From the NCBI GenBank assembly GCA_017483765.1, contig JAFUVE010000045.1, forward strand, positions 1-51,035: a stretch of DNA of 51,035 nt, in the 5' to 3' direction. Below are positions 31,672 to 41,374 of this stretch, in pieces. Both the position numbers and the translations under genes were made by a program. Within the stretch, counting starts at the first letter, position 1. Each line of letters starts with the position of its first letter. Origin of the DNA: Bacteroidaceae bacterium. Lineage in GTDB: Bacteria > Bacteroidota > Bacteroidia > Bacteroidales > Bacteroidaceae. Below the pieces are notes generated by a model. It was not told the origin of the DNA and ran no database searches. It saw only the letters and a list, made by a program, of their open reading frames with translations.

Positions 31672-31684
31672 TTTGTTTACTCGT

Positions 31685-33367
31685 ATGAAAAAGTTTCTTT
31701 ATAATATCGCAGCCATCTGTTCTGCTGCTCTTCTTACACTACCGTTTGCCGGTTGTCAGGAGACTGAGTCTGACCTCGTCTCTTTTGTCGACGACAACAA
31801 ACTCAACACGCCTAACGACACGGTTTACTCTCTCATGGGAATCATCAGTAAGATGCAAGTCGTGGCTGACAGGACGATCATCCTTGGTGAAATCAGAGGT
31901 GAACTGACTGCTCTTACTGAAAATGCCAGCCTCGACCTACAGGAAATCGCCAACTTCACGGCGGGAACGGATAACCCATATAATAACGCAAGGGATTATT
32001 ACGCCATTATCCAGAACTGCAATTACTTCATCGCTAACGCTGACACAGCCCTGACAAAGAGGGGAAGGAAAGTGTTCGAGAAGGAGATGGGGGCTATCAA
32101 GACCTACAGGGCATGGACTTATCTGCAACTCGCCATGAACTATGGTTCCGTGCCGTTCTTCACTGACCCGATTCTCTACGAGAAAAATGCCGACCCGGAT
32201 CTTTATCCGCATTATGATGTAAAACAGATCGCGGATTTCTTTATCAAGGACCTGGCCCCTTATGTCGATACAGACTATCCTAACTATGGATCGGTTAATT
32301 CTCTGGACTCAAGACAATTCTATATTCCGGTAAGAGTTATGCTCGGAGATCTCTGCCTTTGGGCGGAAAGATACCGGGAAGCAGCTATGTATTACCATGA
32401 CTTCTTCACGAAGCAGTCTGACCCACACCCGTTGGGAATAGGAAACGTGCAGTGGACTTCATTTGATTTCCAAGACATTATGGACAGTTATGCTACACAG
32501 TTTACTTCCCAGTCTTTATCTGATTTGCTTACTATAATCCCTATGGAGACTTCTGAGTACGACGGAATTATGTCTGACTTGCAGGATGTCTTCAACTCCA
32601 CTTCGGATAACAACTATTTCTACCAGGCAACCCATTCCAAGGCGTATGACGAACTTTCTCAGGCGCAACAGTATGTGCTGGTCTATACCGACCCTGTTAC
32701 GCTTCTGCCTGACACCATTTGTGCAACTGACACCATCCACTATGACTCTGATCAGCAAAAGGGTGACCTGAGACAGTATAGCATCTTCAAGTTGAGAAAT
32801 AACGCCTCGGCTTCCACCAGCTTCTCATCTATCCGGCAGACTTGTTATAAGTACAGTTCTGATAACGTTGCACTCTATCGCCTTCAGCATGTATACCTGA
32901 GGTTCGCTGAGGCCCTCAACAGGGCGGGATTCCCGCAGGCGGCCTTTGCTGTGCTCAAATACGGTCTCTGGAAGGACAATATCGAGAAGTATATTTCGCA
33001 GCAGGAGCGTGACGAGGCGGGTGACCTCCTCTCTTTCAGTGAATATATGTTCACAAGGGAGAACACCAGCGGAATCCACTCTCGCGGATGTGGTGACGCG
33101 AATGCCGACACAACTTACGTGATTCCGCAGCTCCCGACGAAGAACGACTCTATCAACTTCGTGGAAACAAAAATCTGTGATGAGATGGCGCTCGAGACCG
33201 CGGCTGAGGGATTGCGGTATTACGACCTCATGCGTATTGCTATGCACCGTAATGACCCGACTTTCCTTGCAACGAAAGTTGCGGCAAGGGATGGAGCCAA
33301 TCATTTCAACTCTGAACTTTATTCCAAGCTTTCAGACAATAAAAACTGGTATCTGCCGTTACAATAA
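31685..33367 (+). CDS. SusD/RagB surface glycan-binding lipoprotein 2
   Basis: The ATG at 31685 is chosen over an upstream in-frame TTG at 31673, because MKKFLYNIAAICSAALLTLP then begins the signal peptide; the protein is 560 residues. The lipobox is FAGC, followed by QETESD. SusD-type TPR helices include the AIKTYRAWTYLQLAMNYGSV segment near 140, with PFFTDPILYEKNADP after it, and VMLGDLCLWAERYREAAMYY near 220. VYLRFAEALNRAGFP near 405 and EMALETAAEGLRYYDLMR near 500 correspond to the C-terminal family motifs. It pairs with SusC 2 and is the last gene before the 33394 hairpin. Confidence 0.92.
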   Translation: MKKFLYNIAAICSAALLTLPFAGCQETESDLVSFVDDNKLNTPNDTVYSLMGIISKMQVVADRTIILGEIRGELTALTENASLDLQEIANFTAGTDNPYNNARDYYAIIQNCNYFIANADTALTKRGRKVFEKEMGAIKTYRAWTYLQLAMNYGSVPFFTDPILYEKNADPDLYPHYDVKQIADFFIKDLAPYVDTDYPNYGSVNSLDSRQFYIPVRVMLGDLCLWAERYREAAMYYHDFFTKQSDPHPLGIGNVQWTSFDFQDIMDSYATQFTSQSLSDLLTIIPMETSEYDGIMSDLQDVFNSTSDNNYFYQATHSKAYDELSQAQQYVLVYTDPVTLLPDTICATDTIHYDSDQQKGDLRQYSIFKLRNNASASTSFSSIRQTCYKYSSDNVALYRLQHVYLRFAEALNRAGFPQAAFAVLKYGLWKDNIEKYISQQERDEAGDLLSFSEYMFTRENTSGIHSRGCGDANADTTYVIPQLPTKNDSINFVETKICDEMALETAAEGLRYYDLMRIAMHRNDPTFLATKVAARDGANHFNSELYSKLSDNKNWYLPLQ

Positions 33368-33470: not shown

Positions 33471-34949
33471 ATGGACGAGAAAAACTATCAATCTGGAAGC
33501 AAGGGATATCTCATATCCATTGTCATGGTGGCTGTGCTCGGAGGACTTCTTTTCGGATACGACACCGCGGTAATTTCAGGTGCTGAGAAAGGTCTGCAGG
33601 CGTTCTTCATTGGGGCTGGCGATTTTCAGTACACCGATTTCTATCATGGATTCACGTCATCCAGTGCGCTTATCGGATGTATCATCGGTTCGGCACTCTC
33701 GGGACTACTGGCATCTAAGCTGGGACGTAAAAAATCACTTATCGTTGCCGGCGTGCTTTTCTTTATCTCCGCTCTTGGATCTATGGAGCCGGAGTTCCTC
33801 TTCTTTGAAAAGGGAAATCCCACATTCTCGCTACTGATCATGTTCAATATCTATCGTGTCATCGGTGGTGTGGGTGTCGGACTGGCATCGGCCATCTGCC
33901 CTATGTATATCGGAGAGGTGGCACCGTCAAAGATTCGTGGTATGCTTGTATCATGGAACCAGTTTGCCATTATCTTCGGTCAGTTAGTGGTCTACTTCGT
34001 CAATTTCCTTATTCTCGGCGACCACACCAATCCGGTCATCGAATCTATTGGACAAGGAGTAAATCAGGTGCTTCCTAATAGCGATCCTTGGACCATCGAG
34101 ACGGGATGGAGATATATGTTCGGATCTGAGGCTGTGCCGGCAGGACTTTTTGCCATTCTCATATGCCTTGTCCCTGAAACACCAAGATACCTTGTCATGA
34201 TCAATCAGGATGAGAAAGCCCTCTCTGTCCTCTCTAAGATCAATGGAGCTGACAAGGCACACCAGATTCTCAATGACATTAAGGAGACCATCACGGTCAA
34301 GACTGAGAAGCTCATGACTTACGGATGGATGTGTATTTTTGTCGGTATCATGCTCAGTGTCTTCCAGCAGGCTGTCGGAATCAATGCGGTTCTTTACTAT
34401 GCGCCGCGTATATTCAATGATATGGGTATGGACAACCCGATGGTCAACACAGTCGTCATGGGTGTCGTAAACATTTTATTCACACTTGTTGCTATCTTCA
34501 CTGTAGAGAAGCTCGGCAGAAAGCCTCTTCTTATTTGGGGATCTATCGGTATGGCCATTGGTGCGATGGGAGTTGCACTTACATTCGGACACGAGGGTAT
34601 GGCTATGCTCACCATGATTTCTATTATGGTCTACAGTGCGTCGTTCATGTTCTCTTGGGGACCTATTTGCTGGGTGCTCATCGCAGAGATTTTCCCGAAT
34701 ACAATCCGCGGAGCAGCCGTAGCTATCGCCGTGGCTTTCCAGTGGATATTCAACTTCATCGTTTCATCCACGTTTGTTCCTATGTTCAATATGCATCTCA
34801 CAGAAGGCGATGACTTCGGACACTGGTTCACTTATGGACTCTATGGCGTGATTTGCATCGTTGCAGCTGTATTCGTATGGAAACTCGTTCCCGAAACCAA
34901 GGGCAAGACGCTCGAGGATATGACAAAACTCTGGAAGAAGGAGAAGTAA
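33471..34949 (+). CDS. xylE: MFS sugar:proton symporter, XylE-like
   Basis: This 492-residue inner membrane protein has twelve predicted membrane segments and all sugar-porter signatures: GGLLFGYDTAVISGA near 23, LGRKKSLIVAG near 84, PETPRYLV near 233, FQQAVGINAVLYYAP near 295, LGRKPLLI near 345 and PETKGKTLEDM near the C-terminus. It is almost the same length as E. coli XylE (491). The long extracellular-side segment near residue 100-115 (EPEFLFFEKGNP) and the loop near 185-205 are also XylE-like. Xylose is the likely substrate because the preceding genes process glucuronoxylan, but arabinose or another sugar cannot be excluded. It follows the Sus operon after a hairpin and has no obvious promoter of its own. 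Confidence 0.88.
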   Translation: MDEKNYQSGSKGYLISIVMVAVLGGLLFGYDTAVISGAEKGLQAFFIGAGDFQYTDFYHGFTSSSALIGCIIGSALSGLLASKLGRKKSLIVAGVLFFISALGSMEPEFLFFEKGNPTFSLLIMFNIYRVIGGVGVGLASAICPMYIGEVAPSKIRGMLVSWNQFAIIFGQLVVYFVNFLILGDHTNPVIESIGQGVNQVLPNSDPWTIETGWRYMFGSEAVPAGLFAILICLVPETPRYLVMINQDEKALSVLSKINGADKAHQILNDIKETITVKTEKLMTYGWMCIFVGIMLSVFQQAVGINAVLYYAPRIFNDMGMDNPMVNTVVMGVVNILFTLVAIFTVEKLGRKPLLIWGSIGMAIGAMGVALTFGHEGMAMLTMISIMVYSASFMFSWGPICWVLIAEIFPNTIRGAAVAIAVAFQWIFNFIVSSTFVPMFNMHLTEGDDFGHWFTYGLYGVICIVAAVFVWKLVPETKGKTLEDMTKLWKKEK

Positions 34950-35110: not shown

Positions 35111-35875
35111 CTACTTCAGCAAAAGCTCCATGGTCTCACGCAGTTTGTTTAGCGATGGGTTTAGCTTGCCCATTTCTTCCAGTTGTTCGTATGAACTCAG
35201 AATCTTCTGCGGACCGGTGTTCTCACTTTGTTTGAACACCAGATCCAGCTTTCCGCTGCCAAGCTCTTGCTTGAAGCCTTCCAAAATGATGGCTTTGTTT
35301 TCGCGGAAGAAGGTCTCTACGTTTTGGTTAGCCACTTCTATCTCTATCTCCGACGTGCTTTTCAACTGGGGGATGATGCTCTCCATGCGGGTCGCTACTA
35401 CCTTGTCTACTGAGTGAAGATTGCTGGCCACCTTACGCCATGCCAGCTCAAGCGTGGTCTGGTCCTTGATCGACAGGGTAGGCTCTTCTTTTACTGTGGA
35501 AGCTTGCTGCTCGGGTATGGACGACGTAGCTGTGGGCCGTCCAAGCCCTATCCCGCCACCACTGAATATGGAGGTGCTGCGTACGGTTTTTGCCGGCTGG
35601 CTATCCGCGTTTGCTGACGACAAAGGATGATGGGACTGGATTCCAACGGATTCCGTAGCTCTTGCAGATGGTGCGGAACCAGCTGGAGGTGTTAACGTAG
35701 CATTAGCCGGCCTCACTGCAGGTGTGGCTGGCGGTTGGGTGGAGTTCGACGTGGATGGAGGGGCTTGACCTCCTGGTTGCGCGCCCGTTTGGGGTGTCCC
35801 AGTTCCTGGCTGGCTGTCTCGCTTAAAGACAGGTCTCAAGCGGGCGCTACGTGGGGGAGATGGGAGCCCCCTGTG
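35111..35875 (-). CDS. dnaX: dnaX 3' part: linker and tau-type C-terminal domain, in the +1 frame
   Basis: This frame is open from 35875, just after a TAG at 35878-35876, to its stop at 35111. It continues the dnaX product in the +1 frame. About 100 residues are a Pro/Ser/Thr/Ala-rich flexible linker. The last 120 or so (from LELAWRKVASNLHSVDKVVA to RETMELLLK) match the C-terminal domain of Bacteroidota DnaX, which should tether polymerase and helicase as tau does. The only early start is a TTG at 35839 without a leader, so separate translation is unlikely. A fused product would be about 616 residues. Confidence 0.8.
   Translation of the reverse strand, partial: HRGLPSPPRSARLRPVFKRDSQPGTGTPQTGAQPGGQAPPSTSNSTQPPATPAVRPANATLTPPAGSAPSARATESVGIQSHHPLSSANADSQPAKTVRSTSIFSGGGIGLGRPTATSSIPEQQASTVKEEPTLSIKDQTTLELAWRKVASNLHSVDKVVATRMESIIPQLKSTSEIEIEVANQNVETFFRENKAIILEGFKQELGSGKLDLVFKQSENTGPQKILSSYEQLEEMGKLNPSLNKLRETMELLLK
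35847..35875 (-). other. dnaX frameshift window (candidate programmed +1 site or assembly indel)
   Basis: This 29-nt overlap of the two dnaX frames holds a G5 run (35871-35867) and a C5 run (35857-35853) on the minus strand. The frame-0 codons read TCC CCC ACG TAG. A proline tRNA on CCC followed by A can slip +1 onto CCA, giving CGT AGC next and bypassing the stop. G5 and C5 can also pair as a small hairpin. A single-base indel in either run would explain the break as well. Confidence 0.6.
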
Positions 35876-36962
35876 CTATCTGGCTTATCTCTATCAGCAT
35901 TAACTCTACGAGCAGACGGCGGTTCTGACTTTGTTTGTAATTCAGGTCGCAGTCTGTGCATTTGCGTAAGGCGCTGTAGAGGAATCGGGCATCACAACGC
36001 TGGGCTTGAGCTGCATATTGCTGACGGATTTCGTCTGATGTCTCAAGCAGTTGTACGGTCATTGCGTCTTTGCTTACTAATAAATTGCGCAAGTGGGTGT
36101 TCAAGCCCCCGATGAAGTAGCTGCCGTCAAATCCTTTGCTCAATATCTCGTTGTAGGTGAGCATCAACTCGGGTATGTTTCCGCTTAGGAAGCAGTCCAC
36201 GATTTTGAAATAATAGGCGGCGTCAAGGACGTTCAGGTCGGCTATCGTCTGTTGGTAGGTGATATTCCCCTGACAGAAGGCTGCCACCTGGTCGAATATC
36301 GACAACGCGTCGCGCATGCCGCCATCGGCTTTCTGGGCTATCACGTTCAGGGCGGCAGGCTCGTAGCTGATTCCTTCCTGCTGTGCCACGTTCTCCAAAT
36401 GGCCGATGATGTCCTGAACCGTCATGCGGTTGAAGTCGTATATCTGGCAACGCGACAAAATCGTAGGGAGCAACTTGTGTTTCTCGGTGGTGGCTAATAT
36501 GAAGATGGCATGTGCGGGAGGTTCTTCCAATGTCTTCAGGAAGGCATTGAAGGCTGCTTGTGACAACATATGAACCTCGTCGATGATATACACTTTGTAT
36601 TTTCCTAACTGAGGGGGTATGTTCACCTGCTCACACAAGTTGCGGATGGCGTCAACGCCGTTGTTTGACGCGGCGTCTAACTCGTGGATGTTGAGCGACC
36701 TTTGTTCGTTGAAGGCCTGGCAAGACTCGCACTGCTCACAGGCATCTCCGTTGGGCAGAGGAGTCAGACAGTTGATGGTCTTGGCGAAGATGCGGGCACA
36801 AGTGGTCTTACCTACACCGCGAGGACCACAGAACAAATAGGCATGGGCCAGCTTGCCACTGCTGATGGAGTTTTTCAGGGTCTGTGTCAGCGACGATTGT
36901 CCTACCACAGAACTGAAGGTCACCGGACGGTATTTTCGTGCGGATACAATATAGTTTTCCAT
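35847..36962 (-). CDS. dnaX: dnaX 5' part: DNA polymerase III gamma/tau clamp-loader domains I-III
   Basis: The frame encodes 371 residues: YIVSARKYRPVTFSSVVGQ at the start, Walker A FCGPRGVGKTTCARIF near 47, the zinc module with CLTP, CEQC and C between 65 and 82, Walker B VYIIDEVHMLS near 125, and sensor/arginine-finger LPTILSRCQIYDF near 165. The collar domain follows to about 365. The chain stops right after the collar, close to where E. coli gamma's essential domains end, so frame 0 alone would give a working gamma-like ATPase. The C-terminal tau part is in another frame (35111-35875). Confidence 0.92.
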   Translation of the reverse strand: MENYIVSARKYRPVTFSSVVGQSSLTQTLKNSISSGKLAHAYLFCGPRGVGKTTCARIFAKTINCLTPLPNGDACEQCESCQAFNEQRSLNIHELDAASNNGVDAIRNLCEQVNIPPQLGKYKVYIIDEVHMLSQAAFNAFLKTLEEPPAHAIFILATTEKHKLLPTILSRCQIYDFNRMTVQDIIGHLENVAQQEGISYEPAALNVIAQKADGGMRDALSIFDQVAAFCQGNITYQQTIADLNVLDAAYYFKIVDCFLSGNIPELMLTYNEILSKGFDGSYFIGGLNTHLRNLLVSKDAMTVQLLETSDEIRQQYAAQAQRCDARFLYSALRKCTDCDLNYKQSQNRRLLVELMLIEISQIAQGAPISPT

Positions 36963-37082: not shown

Positions 37083-37117
37083 TACACTATTCACTTTTCA
37101 CTATTCACTATTCACTT
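37083..37117 (+). repeat. TTCACT(T/A) heptamer array 1
   Basis: After ACACTA come four units TTCACTT, TTCACTA, TTCACTA and TTCACTT. The array runs into the 3' end of the M64 peptidase gene, and its last unit supplies that gene's TGA on the minus strand. Confidence 0.75.
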
Positions 37118-38425
37118 ACTCGTATAGAATTCCGTCACTTCTTTCAAAGCACGGGTGCAGACGGGACAGAAGTCTTCCACTTCCAGAACTTTCATCCGGC
37201 ATTCCTGGCATGGACGGTAAACGCCTTTCGACTGATAGCCGCCACCTTCGTATACTCCTATTTTCTGTGTATAAGCTTTGGGCAGGTTCTTGTCCAGCAG
37301 CTCTCTGTAGCTGAGTGGAGTGAAAGGGGTAGGGATGGCGGTGCCTGAAGGGAGCATGTCCTTCCATTTACTTTTGAAGTCCACCATGGTCGTGATATTT
37401 GGCTCCCAGGGTTCTGTGTCCGATGGATATTTCGTCTCGAACTGGTCGTCATAGTAATATTCGTCGGCAAGGCCGCCATAGCCATGACCGAACTCGTGGA
37501 CAAGCAGCGGCTTGAAAGTGGGGTGGTCGGCGGGAAACACGTTGATCTGGTTGTATATGCCGCCACCGCCATACAGGTCGGTGTTCACCAGGATGATGAT
37601 CTGGTCGAAGGGGATGCCGTCAAGTATGTCGTATACGTTCCACATCTTGCTCGTCATCAGGTAGCGGTCTGTGTAGAATGTGTCATAATGGCTGCCGCAT
37701 GGCAGGTCTTTCCATTCTTGCCGGCGTGGTATGGTAGGGCCGCTCTCTCGGCTCGGGCAGTCGACGGCAAGCACGTTGAAGTGTGATTTCATACCGCTGA
37801 ATGGCTCATGGCTGAACAGGGCGTCTACCGTGCGCTGACAGTCTTTGAGAAATTTTTCCTTCTCTGATGAGGTGTAGCCTTCAGGGATAATGGCGATGTC
37901 AACGCAGGAATTGCTCTCACCGCTTTTCAGCACATAGCTGTAGTCATACCTGTTTTTCTCTACCTTGCGGATGAGAATGTCTGACGGGTCTACCACATGG
38001 CATAGTTCCGAGGTCACGCGGGCATGGGTGTCGCGAAGTGTGATTGTCACTTCTATCGGGCGCTTGGGATAGGGGATGACGTAGCTGTTCTCAAAGGATT
38101 TTGACAATTTTGTGGCCTCTTCTTCGGTCTGCCATTCCTGGAACAAGGTGGAGAAACTCGTGCAGTATATCACAGCCTTGGTCAGCGTGTCGCGAACCGT
38201 CAGCTGACCGTTCCCGTTCAATATCTGCTCCGACAATCGGCTTTTGCGGCCGTGCCACCCTGGCGTTTGACGGGCCTCATGAAAAAAGATGTACTGGCTG
38301 CGGTTGTTCCCGCCAAAGATGTAGTCAAGCCGAAGGGTGTTGTCTGTGAAATAATCTTCAAATTCCTGTGCGTTTGTTTGTGCTGCTATAGATATTACTG
38401 CAATCAATAATAATATGTATCTCAT
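37112..38425 (-). CDS. secreted M64 family zinc metallopeptidase
   Basis: The ATG at 38425 is preferred over an in-frame TTG at 38440, because MRYILLLIAVISIAAQTNAQ then forms the signal peptide; the protein has 437 residues. The N-terminal half is the beta-rich M64 pro or N domain. The catalytic half has IAIIPEGYTSSEKEKF, SRESGPTIP and the zinc motif HEFGHGYGGLADEYYY near 305. A C-terminal CQEC...CPVC pair may bind a structural zinc, as in other Bacteroidota M64 proteins. The family includes an IgA-cleaving protease, but IgA activity here is not shown. Its stop codon lies in heptamer array 1. Confidence 0.88.
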   Translation of the reverse strand: MRYILLLIAVISIAAQTNAQEFEDYFTDNTLRLDYIFGGNNRSQYIFFHEARQTPGWHGRKSRLSEQILNGNGQLTVRDTLTKAVIYCTSFSTLFQEWQTEEEATKLSKSFENSYVIPYPKRPIEVTITLRDTHARVTSELCHVVDPSDILIRKVEKNRYDYSYVLKSGESNSCVDIAIIPEGYTSSEKEKFLKDCQRTVDALFSHEPFSGMKSHFNVLAVDCPSRESGPTIPRRQEWKDLPCGSHYDTFYTDRYLMTSKMWNVYDILDGIPFDQIIILVNTDLYGGGGIYNQINVFPADHPTFKPLLVHEFGHGYGGLADEYYYDDQFETKYPSDTEPWEPNITTMVDFKSKWKDMLPSGTAIPTPFTPLSYRELLDKNLPKAYTQKIGVYEGGGYQSKGVYRPCQECRMKVLEVEDFCPVCTRALKEVTEFYTSK

Positions 38426-38504
38426 AATTCCTGTTTTCAAATAATTGCTTTTTATTAAAATTAAAAAGATTTATGGATGCAATCTGTTAACCTCTATTAG
38501 AATA

Positions 38505-38547
38505 AGTAAATACACTTTTCACTTTTCATTTTTCACTCTTCACTTAC
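38505..38547 (+). repeat. TTCACT(T/A) heptamer array 2
   Basis: GTAAATACACTT leads into degenerate heptamer units (TTCACTT, TTCATTT, TTCACTC, TTCACTT) and TACT. On the minus strand the last unit supplies the TGA of uvrA, so both array-linked minus genes end in AGT AAG TGA (Ser-Lys-stop). Confidence 0.75.
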
Positions 38548-41374
38548 TGAGCTTTTCCTTCAGAAAACGTCCTGTGTGCGACTCCGGAATTTTTGCGATC
38601 TCTTCTGGCGTTCCGCAAGCCACCACCTCGCCGCCGGCATTGCCGCCTTCCGGCCCCATGTCGATGATGTGGTCGGCACATTGGATCACTTCCATGTTAT
38701 GTTCGATTATCAGGACGGTGTGACCCCGCTTAATCAATGCGTCGAATGCGCTAAGCAGGCGTTTGATGTCATGGGCATGAAGACCGGTCGTGGGCTCGTC
38801 GAATATAAATAAGGTGGGCTGCACTTTCTCAAGACTCAGGTAATAGGCGAGTTTCACACGCTGGTTCTCACCGCCCGACAGGGTGCTCGAACTCTGCCCT
38901 AACTTCAAATAGCCCAGGCCTACATCCTGAAGCGGCTTCAACTTCGTCAATATCTTTTTCTGCTTTCGCTCGCCGAAAAATTCTATTGCCTGGTTGATGG
39001 TCATATTCAGTATGTCGTTGATGTTCTGCCCGTCATAACGTACTTCGAGAATGTCGCGCTTGAAGCGTTGGCCATGACATGACTCGCATTCCATCACCAA
39101 GTCGTTCATGAACTGCATCTCCACAGTCACCGTGCCTTCACCTTTGCATTCCTCACAACGGCCGCCACTTGTGTTGAACGAGAAGAATGCCGGGGTGTAG
39201 TTCATCTGGAGAGATAGCTGCTGCTGCGACATCAATTGACGGATTTCGTCGTATGCGCCGATGTAGGTCACGGGGTTGCTGCGGCTGGAGGTGCCTATCG
39301 AATTTTGATCCACGAATATCACGCGCTTGATCATGTCCAGGTCGCCTTCCAGCGATGTATGCTGGCCGGGACGGTCGCTCGGCTCGTCAAAATGGCGTTT
39401 CAGTGAGTTGTACAGTATGCTGTTCACCAAGGTCGACTTGCCGCTACCGCTCACGCCGGTTACTACGGTCATCACGTTCAGGGGAAATTCCACATCGATT
39501 CCTTTCAGGTTGTTCTCCCGGGCGCCACGGACTATGATGCGGTTGTTCCATGCCCTACGGGTGGAGGGGGGGAGGATGATGTCTTTTCCCAGCAGATACT
39601 GAAGCGTGTGGGAGCGGTCTATGGCATCGCTCTTGCTAATCTCTGAGTAGTTGCCTTGCCATACCACTTCGCCTCCAAGTCTTCCTGCGTCAGGACCCAT
39701 GTCTATGATATAGTCGGCGGATTTCATGATGTCCTCATCGTGTTCCACCACGATCACGGTGTTGCCCAGTGATTTCAGCTCTTGCAACACATGAATCAGA
39801 CGTTTCGTGTCGCGGGGATGAAGGCCGATACTGGGCTCGTCAAGGATGTATAGCGATCCCACAAGGCTGCTGCCCAGGCTTGATGCGAGGTTCACGCGTT
39901 GGCTCTCTCCGCCTGACAAGGTGTTTCGGGCACGGCTCAACGTCAGATATCCCAGACCGACTTCCTCCAGAAACCTCAACCGGTTACCTATCTCGGTCAG
40001 CAGTCGCTTGCCGATGGAAGCGTCCGTCTCCGACAGTTCCAATGACTGGAAAAACAGGCGTAAGTCGCTGATGGACATATTAATCACCTCACTGATGCTC
40101 TTGCCGCCAATCTTCACGTAGTTGGCGTGTGCTTTCAAGCGGCTCCCATGGCAAACCGGGCAGGTGGTCTTCCCGCGGTAGCGGGCCAGCATTACGCGGT
40201 ATTGAATCTTGTATTGGTTCTTCCTCAGCATCTCAAAGAAATTATCGATGCACACGTTGTACTCGCCTAAGCTGGGATCGCCGTGCCACAACTGGTCTTT
40301 CTGATCCTGGGTCAGGGAGTAGTAAGGGGCGAATATCGGAAAACCCTGAGAGGAATAACGCTGGATAAAGGCATTTTTCCATTCTCCCATCTTCTCGCCG
40401 CGCCAGCAGACAACAGCGCCGTCGTGAAGACTCAGCTCTGTGTCCGGAATCACCAGACCTTCGTCTATGCCGATCACACGGCCGAAACCTCCGCATTCGG
40501 GGCACGCGCCTATAGGAGAATTGAATGAGAACATCTGCTCGCTGGGCTCTTCGAAGGTGATGCCGTCGCACTCAAAATTGGTAGAGAACGTATCAAGGCT
40601 CTCTTCTTCGCTTATGCCAGGTGTGGGAAGAAAATGCAGCATGCAGATGCCTTGACCTTCATACATGGCGGTACGCACGGAGTCAGACAGACGGTCTATG
40701 CTCGACTTGTCTCGGCCGCTTACCATACGGTCAATAAGCAGGTGTATGGAGTCGGACCTGATCTCTGAATCTGAGTCGGACAGGATCGACAGCAAGTCGC
40801 TGATGTTCTTCACAGACCCGTTGACCACTGCCCTTGCATATCCTTCTTTTATATATATGTCCAATTGTTGCGACAAGGTGCGCCCTTCATGTACCACTAT
40901 CGGAGACTCGATCATCAGACGAACACCTTCGGGCTTTCCGGTCACGCATTTTATGATGTCGTCTATCGTATGCTTCTTCACTTCCTTTCCGCTTATCGGA
41001 GAATAGGTGTGGCCGATGCGGGCATAGAGCATACGAAGGTAATCGTATATCTCGGTCGATGTGCCTACTGTTGAACGAGGATTGCGGCTGATCACTTTCT
41101 GCTCTATGGCGATGGCGGGTGGGATACCCTCGATGAAGTCACATTCGGGCTTGTTCATCCGCCCCAGAAACTGACGTGCATAGGTGTTCAGACTCTCGAC
41201 ATAGCGGCGCTGACCCTCGGCGTAAAGCGTGTCGAAGGCGAGCGACGACTTTCCGCTGCCGCTCACTCCGGTCACAACGATCAGTTTGTTGTGGGGGATG
41301 TCAAGGCTGATGTTCTTCAGGTTGTTCACGCGGACTCCGTGCAGACGGATGACTCCTAATTTCTCTGTTTCCAT
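38540..41374 (-). CDS. uvrA: excinuclease ABC subunit A
   Basis: This 944-residue protein is the damage-sensing subunit of nucleotide excision repair, a twin ABC ATPase that loads UvrB at lesions. It has Walker A VVTGVSGSGKSSLAFDTLYA near 32 and again VVTGVSGSGKSTLVNSIL near 640, signature motifs LSGGESQRV near 490 and LSGGENQRV near 830, and zinc-binding cysteines ACPECGGFGR, TCPVCHGSR, CEECKGEG and CESCHGQR. Two Walker B regions read YILDEPSIGLHP and FIFDEPTTGLHA. Length is normal. Its TAACTTTG box is at 41489-41496 and its stop lies in heptamer array 2. Confidence 0.97.
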   Translation of the reverse strand: METEKLGVIRLHGVRVNNLKNISLDIPHNKLIVVTGVSGSGKSSLAFDTLYAEGQRRYVESLNTYARQFLGRMNKPECDFIEGIPPAIAIEQKVISRNPRSTVGTSTEIYDYLRMLYARIGHTYSPISGKEVKKHTIDDIIKCVTGKPEGVRLMIESPIVVHEGRTLSQQLDIYIKEGYARAVVNGSVKNISDLLSILSDSDSEIRSDSIHLLIDRMVSGRDKSSIDRLSDSVRTAMYEGQGICMLHFLPTPGISEEESLDTFSTNFECDGITFEEPSEQMFSFNSPIGACPECGGFGRVIGIDEGLVIPDTELSLHDGAVVCWRGEKMGEWKNAFIQRYSSQGFPIFAPYYSLTQDQKDQLWHGDPSLGEYNVCIDNFFEMLRKNQYKIQYRVMLARYRGKTTCPVCHGSRLKAHANYVKIGGKSISEVINMSISDLRLFFQSLELSETDASIGKRLLTEIGNRLRFLEEVGLGYLTLSRARNTLSGGESQRVNLASSLGSSLVGSLYILDEPSIGLHPRDTKRLIHVLQELKSLGNTVIVVEHDEDIMKSADYIIDMGPDAGRLGGEVVWQGNYSEISKSDAIDRSHTLQYLLGKDIILPPSTRRAWNNRIIVRGARENNLKGIDVEFPLNVMTVVTGVSGSGKSTLVNSILYNSLKRHFDEPSDRPGQHTSLEGDLDMIKRVIFVDQNSIGTSSRSNPVTYIGAYDEIRQLMSQQQLSLQMNYTPAFFSFNTSGGRCEECKGEGTVTVEMQFMNDLVMECESCHGQRFKRDILEVRYDGQNINDILNMTINQAIEFFGERKQKKILTKLKPLQDVGLGYLKLGQSSSTLSGGENQRVKLAYYLSLEKVQPTLFIFDEPTTGLHAHDIKRLLSAFDALIKRGHTVLIIEHNMEVIQCADHIIDMGPEGGNAGGEVVACGTPEEIAKIPESHTGRFLKEKLSK

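Follow-up and report, generated by a model that had tools for sequence, protein, structure and literature searches.

Whether a short subunit of the clamp loader is required by bacteria in addition to tau is an old debate. In Thermus dnaX transcript slippage takes place on an A/T run. A 2013 paper (Sharma et al., PMC3711429) described dnaX genes of two ORFs that depend on recoding to give tau, mostly with poly-A runs, and these genes are cited in a 2016 review (PMC5009743). In the accessible text of the earlier paper the 17 published genes are of the -1 type at the DNA level, 12 of them carry poly-A runs, and transcript slippage is the favoured mechanism (PMC3711429). Elsewhere, Listeria phages shift +1 at CCC_UGA, the Ty1 +1 site is CUU_AGG_C, and in a Roseiflexus IS630 insertion sequence transcript slippage leads to the loss of one C at T5C5 (PMC5009743, accessible text). 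On CCC, to which it is only weakly paired, the native UGG tRNA-Pro can shift by +1 and by +2 when CG follows (CCC-CG), its +2 complex being a poor donor (PMC4519876, excerpts), and in vitro a hairpin placed upstream, adjacent to the E site, favours the +1 shift (PMC6321510, excerpts). In the open-access papers searched, as far as their text was accessible to us, we found neither a +1 site nor a CCC site reported for dnaX and, within the same scope, no report of dnaX recoding in Bacteroidota beyond PMC3711429 and PMC5009743.

In this paper we describe a dnaX gene from a Bacteroidaceae bacterium that is divided between two reading frames, and compare it with the genes of relatives. We think it rather probable that this dnaX has a recoding event built in, with gamma as the default product and tau obtained through slippage of tRNA-Pro on a CCC codon. 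On the best reading what is new here is a CCC +1 type site in dnaX, tau by recoding having already been published for poly-A dnaX genes in the accessible part of PMC3711429.

The divided gene and its conservation

The window, that is, the whole stretch of DNA analysed, is 51,035 nucleotides of contig JAFUVE010000045.1 from a draft genome of 3.13 Mb that is 70% complete (G000). The sequence-only reading had described dnaX as split, with frame 0 running to a TAG after clamp-loader domain III and a tau-type region in the +1 frame, and our coordinates agree (Table 1). It had also reported G5, C5 and TCC CCC ACG TAG within the 29-nt overlap of the two frames (35847-35875), and all of these are present there; the gene lies on the minus strand. 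The +1 ORF has no stop between 35875 and 35111, where it ends, and from the coordinates the fused product would have 616 aa. The predicted tryptic peptide spanning the junction of the shifted product is LLVELMLIEISQIAQGAPISPR, and the unshifted C-terminal peptide would end ...QGAPISPT.

Table 1. Positions of dnaX features in the window
Feature	Position	Strand	Remarks
dnaX frame 0 ORF	35847..36962	-	371 aa, ATG start; AAA+ clamp-loader domains I-III; predicted default gamma-like product, ends at TAG
tau-type C-terminal region	35111..35875	-	+1 frame open; 246 codons past proposed shift
G5 run	35867-35871	-	sequence; inside overlap
C5 run	35853..35857	-	sequence; C6 in G005
zero-frame stop TAG	35847..35849	-	one codon after CCC (CCC ACG TAG); aligned TAG in G012 and G003
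proposed slip codon CCC (P site)	35853..35855	-	followed by A at 35852; +1 slide would give CCA, next codon CGT
candidate G5...C5 hairpin	35853..35871	-	3' arm contains slip codon; putative role; not significant alone
TTG in tau frame just past stop	35837..35839	-	possible reinitiation codon or, as TTGA, third-frame stop

Frame 0 matches positions 1-364 of the 614-position gamma/tau model NF011531 (E 3.7e-214; 713 bits, cut-off 685) and the +1 ORF matches positions 392-613 (E 3.8e-18); since both ORFs fit this single model, they represent one ancestral protein that has been divided. Frame 0 also matches TIGR02397 (440 bits) and, in Pfam, PF13177, PF22608 and, weakly, PF12169, at 22.2 bits just below the cut-off of 24.4, and at 24.4 when scanned with its neighbours. 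PF12169 has a single match in G000, and the Pfam scan gave no domain match for the tau ORF. The gene has the AAA+ clamp-loader domains plus domain III, and its tau C-terminal region is homologous to that of in-frame relatives, which is what defines a dnaX of the gamma/tau type. By Pfam the neighbouring genes encode an M64 peptidase (37112-38440) and a UvrA-like ABC protein (38540-41374) on the minus strand, and a sugar transporter (33471-34949) and a SusD-type protein (31673-33367) on the plus strand. No second dnaX part is present among these four Pfam-scanned neighbours.

A dnaX match was obtained in 11 of the 13 genomes of the genus, G004 and G008 giving none. The gene is split in four (G000, G012, G003 and G005) and in frame in seven (G001, G002, G006, G007, G009, G010 and G011), in G001 only up to the end of the contig. 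Amino-acid identity of the split genes to that of the window is 100% for G012, 88% for G003 and 89% for G005; the tau ORF of G003 runs off its contig, leaving the 3' end unseen. Between G000 and G012 dS is 0.15 in frame 0 and 0.11 in tau, and among the three split lineages it ranges from 1.4 to saturated in frame 0 and from 2.1 to saturated in the tau ORF. Where it could be computed, dN/dS was 0.14-0.28 for the tau ORF and 0.02-0.06 for frame 0, and both parts of dnaX are under purifying selection. A split shared across near-saturated dS, together with this dN/dS of tau, shows that the division arose long ago and that the tau frame has been maintained since. When run length was compared among relatives, as the sequence-only reading had proposed, a C run shorter by one base was found in none of the four split genomes. 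Given the conservation of the split in four genomes, we reject assembly error or recent mutation as its source.

The search at family level matched dnaX in 382 of 399 genomes. The other short frames among the matches listed in the family were G225, the contig ends G001, G213 and G145, and G369; G213, G145 and G001 were rejected as split genes, being short only since their contigs end.

The junction, the slip codon and rival explanations

The junction reads CAG GGG GCT CCC ATC TCC CCC ACG TAG CGC CCG CTT GAG ACC in G000 and G012, GAG GGG GAC ACC GTC TCC CCC AAG TAG CGC CCG TTT GAG ACC in G003, and GGA GGA GAG ACA TCC TCC CCC CAA CTA ACG CCC GCT TGA AAC C in G005. CCC-A is thus common to G000, G012 and G003, in each of which CCC could act as a slippery P-site codon, a +1 slide leading to CCA; G005 has CCC-CA, and G225, from another genus of the family, has CCC_TAA. 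Both the slip codon and the bases that follow it are conserved among the three split lineages of the genus (CCC ACG TAG CGC CCG, CCC AAG TAG CGC CCG and CCC CAA CTA ACG CCC G). CCC-A by itself would not suffice, since 25 ORFs of the window contain 99 CCC codons in frame and 29 of these have an A next to them, but TCC CCC A occurs once in those ORFs, at the dnaX junction. With its C6, G005 has the tau frame at +2/-1 of frame 0. Frame 0 there runs on to a TGA, and the TAA that aligns with the zero-frame TAG falls outside it owing to the C6; a +2 slide lands on CCA, and a -1 slide would also serve. The need for +2 or -1 in G005 weakens a simple +1 claim and is the main point against a pure +1 reading.

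In the window genome ARAGORN found tRNA-Pro with only the anticodons CGG and UGG. When 21 genomes were scanned with a D-arm pattern, 18 of them yielded 30 tRNA-Pro matches between them (20 UGG and 10 CGG) and three yielded none; no GGG tRNA-Pro was among the 30, in these 21 incomplete assemblies and with this one pattern. Of two other patterns, the first was mis-spaced and matched in 1 of 19 genomes, a UGG tRNA, and a GGG-only pattern, wrongly spaced for a short D-loop, matched in 2 of 20 genomes at one mismatch, neither match being a GGG tRNA. With only UGG and CGG proline anticodons found, it is probably the UGG tRNA that decodes CCC, with weak pairing, and it would be able to re-pair on CCA.

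We propose that normal translation would stop at the TAG and yield a 371-aa gamma-like clamp-loader subunit, and that some ribosomes would slip at the proline codon CCC. The peptidyl tRNA-Pro(UGG), paired weakly to CCC, would slide forward and re-pair on CCA, and translation would continue in the tau frame to give the 616-aa tau-like protein. In G005 the same tRNA would have to move two bases to reach CCA. What the genomes show is the split and its conservation, purifying selection in frame 0 as well as in the tau ORF, CCC followed by A, and a tRNA-Pro set in which no GGG anticodon was found; that a shift occurs, that it is ribosomal and that the UGG tRNA is its agent we infer, together with any ratio of the products. 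The G5/C5 hairpin may help. In G000 this hairpin has -8.8 kcal/mol (z -0.91), and the folding z of the junction is -0.79 in G003, -3.58 in G005 and -0.37 in G225, notable only in G005. The earlier proposal of gamma by default and tau by shifting stands as to the conserved split, the shifted frame under purifying selection and the plausible CCC-A context, but not as to a direction that is uniformly +1, given the C6 of G005.

The prfB genes of nine genomes of the genus (L158-L166) are each one uninterrupted frame and lack the CUU_UGA site at which prfB usually shifts, and a pattern of SD plus CUNUGA had no match. To judge from these sequences prfB in the genus has itself lost the shift, and so provides no positive control for +1 shifting here. 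Two other candidates were set aside: poly-A slippage at the window dnaX, the junction having no A run, and a prfB-like, SD-driven +1 shift, the distance from AGGGGG to the slip CCC being 11 nt and the prfB of the genus lacking the frameshift site.

An alternative origin of tau lies in transcription, where RNA polymerase would add or drop a C in the C run, helped by a nascent hairpin, and the altered mRNAs would give tau. The presence of C5 and C6 at one site, with the tau frame reached from both, would fit a role for run length, the sequence could form a C-rich hairpin, and A runs of at least 9 stand at the junction in many dnaX genes of Bacteroidota (53 of 80 loci, 15 of them split). We nevertheless regard transcript slippage as unlikely at this locus, since C5 and C6 are short and no T5 precedes the run, T5C5 without its context gives undetectable slippage (PMC5009743, accessible text), the C run in G000 and G003 is itself an arm of the hairpin and does not lie 3' of it, and G225 has only C4 and then TAA. 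Less probable still is that ribosomes terminate at the TAG and restart at the TTG 8 nt downstream, so that the tau C-terminal region would be a separate protein. The four split lineages (G000/G012, G003, G005 and G225) have TTG as the codon of the aligned Leu, compared with 5 of 96 in-frame relatives, a comparison made after the fact and in which three of the four lineages share ancestry. Against reinitiation stand the weakness of TTG as a start codon and the second role of this TTGA as a stop in the third frame. In addition, G225 has its TTG 15 codons beyond the stop, a C-terminal part made on its own would not be coupled to the clamp loader, and of 28 loci with a +1 split in another family 11 lack any ATG, GTG or TTG between 15 codons before the stop and 25 codons after it.

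The C6 of G005 and the second CCC-A of G000 (CCC ATC, 2 nt after AGGGGG) could be taken to mean that C6 is true everywhere, C5 being an error and the recoding -1/+2, or that the shift in G000 takes place at the upstream CCC (35862-35864). Either is very improbable, as C5 was found in the separate assemblies G000, G012 and G003, and G003 has ACC at the upstream site. It is harder yet to believe that only a gamma-like protein is made, whether because a frameshift mutation has left the tau part to decay or because the split reflects faulty assembly: the assemblies are all draft and probably metagenome-derived, and G005 differs by one C, but four genomes are split across saturated synonymous divergence with a tau dN/dS well below 1, and both overlap features are kept. 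Slippage of tRNA-Pro on CCC remains the reading that we prefer.

Possible recoding elsewhere at the gamma/tau junction

G225 (L167; same family, genus g21) has CAC CCC TAA GG at the junction, with the +1 tau frame open to its ordinary end. A dnaX match was found in 15 of the 17 genomes of g21, and the 14 besides G225 have open frames of 546-647 aa. The CCC_TAA split seems to be separate from that of the window genus, and this is known from one genome of one species. In G030, also of the family of the window, dnaX is split at an A11 run. Among 80 dnaX loci surveyed, 53 have an A run of at least 9 at the junction. Of these, 15 are split, whereas the other 38 are either in frame or truncated at the end of a contig; among the remaining loci four show a split but no A run, and 23 show neither. 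This survey agrees with the two-ORF poly-A dnaX genes in the accessible text of PMC3711429.

The family of G037 has a dnaX match in 74 of 79 genomes, and 32 of its loci were read, namely the best 30 of 75 matches plus L038 and L106. Twenty-eight of the 32 are split (L038, L106 and L241-L267 except L245, which is in frame), with no A run. All 28 have AGG CAA shortly before the stop, resembling the Ty1 site CUU_AGG_C (PMC5009743, accessible text), and their +1 frame is open for 207-294 codons past the stop. An AGG-type +1 shift is possible in this family. A single in-frame UAG followed by I-A-R-[SG]-P is found at the gamma/tau junction in L093, L107, L123 and L268/L309 (G809), the tau frame being open for 189-254 codons after it, and these genes are candidates for stop readthrough or a reassigned UAG.

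Where the frame is intact the junction has a hairpin. From 101 in-frame Bacteroidaceae-type loci, split members and loci of other families being left out, 99 distinct junctions were obtained, among them three truncated where their contigs stop (L010, L168 and L169) and one, L170, that loses its frame farther on. GGGC-N3/4-GCCC is present in 95 of the 99 (for example L007, L016, L043 and L178-L237), in one codon phase and with varying loops, whereas 200 synonymous shuffles gave a mean of 16.1 and at most 26, and of 320 control windows taken upstream one had it. Among the exceptions L023, L027 and L054 keep a pairable stem by eye and L022 does not. A stop in the -1 frame lies within 10 codons past the hairpin in 71 of the 95, versus 60.7 (sd 3.6) in shuffles; within 4 codons there is no excess in these 95 junctions (49 versus 50.3), and early stops in the +1 frame show little (54 versus 49.0). 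These counts hint that gamma could be made by a -1 shift at the in-frame hairpin. In G369 (L170) dnaX leaves its frame a few codons past the hairpin, near CTT AAA CCC ATT and not at the junction; of error and recoding, this frame change may be error.

Tentatively, and giving it rather less than an even chance, one may see the gamma/tau junction of Bacteroidota as a hot spot of recoding, where one means of setting the product ratio has time and again taken the place of another: poly-A slippage across much of the phylum, the CCC slide (+1, or +2 with C6) in this genus, the separate CCC_UAA of G225, an AGG_CAA-type +1 shift in the family of G037, readthrough of an in-frame UAG in other genomes, and the GGGC-N3/4-GCCC hairpin where the frame is intact. 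If this were true, selection would keep two products and not any one mechanism. A lineage with gamma by default, whose essential tau depended on forward slippage at a proline codon, would be a strong natural test of the need for a short subunit. It would also be a case, other than prfB, of a +1 shift serving a housekeeping function in the cell, and would show that unrelated recoding devices can stand in for each other at one place in one gene.

Comparison with known systems

Like the two-ORF dnaX genes in the accessible text of PMC3711429, the zero frame of the window gene is gamma and stops just past the shift site, after domain III, tau is open in another frame, where the longer product would be reached by recoding, and the arrangement is conserved in relatives. 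Unlike them, it has no A run, and the shift would be +1 at CCC-A in three of the four split genomes. A poly-A run of about 7-12 at the junction, as in 12 of the 17 published cases, is absent from the split genomes of the genus, so the window dnaX is a variant and not of the poly-A type.

The dnaX of E. coli, with its -1 programmed ribosomal frameshift, is similarly a single gene with gamma- and tau-type products and a shift just after domain III, but the default product and the direction are opposite and the window has no A_AAA_AAG site. The sequence-only reading had called this the reverse of the E. coli logic; the best reading does have gamma as the default, but this is not new in itself, two-ORF dnaX having been described in 2013 (PMC3711429, accessible text). 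The +1 frameshift of prfB (release factor 2) has the same direction and a stop near the slip codon, but the window has no CUU_UGA, and its possible AGGGGG is 11 nt, not 3, from the slip CCC. Thermus dnaX and the Roseiflexus IS630 element share with the window dnaX a length-variable homopolymer at the junction and a possible nascent hairpin. They differ from the window, where the C run is short, no T5 is present and the hairpin overlaps the run; the T5C5 directly 3' of a stable hairpin in Roseiflexus is replaced by ATCTCCCCC, with the run inside the hairpin arm. The proposed site can also be compared with tsh of Listeria phage, with CCC_UGA, and cps of PSA, with CCC, where the +1 shift takes place at CCC next to or near a stop, and the CCC_UAA of G225 comes nearest to them in form. 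These are structural genes of phages, whereas dnaX has a housekeeping role in replication, and its stop in the window comes one codon later.
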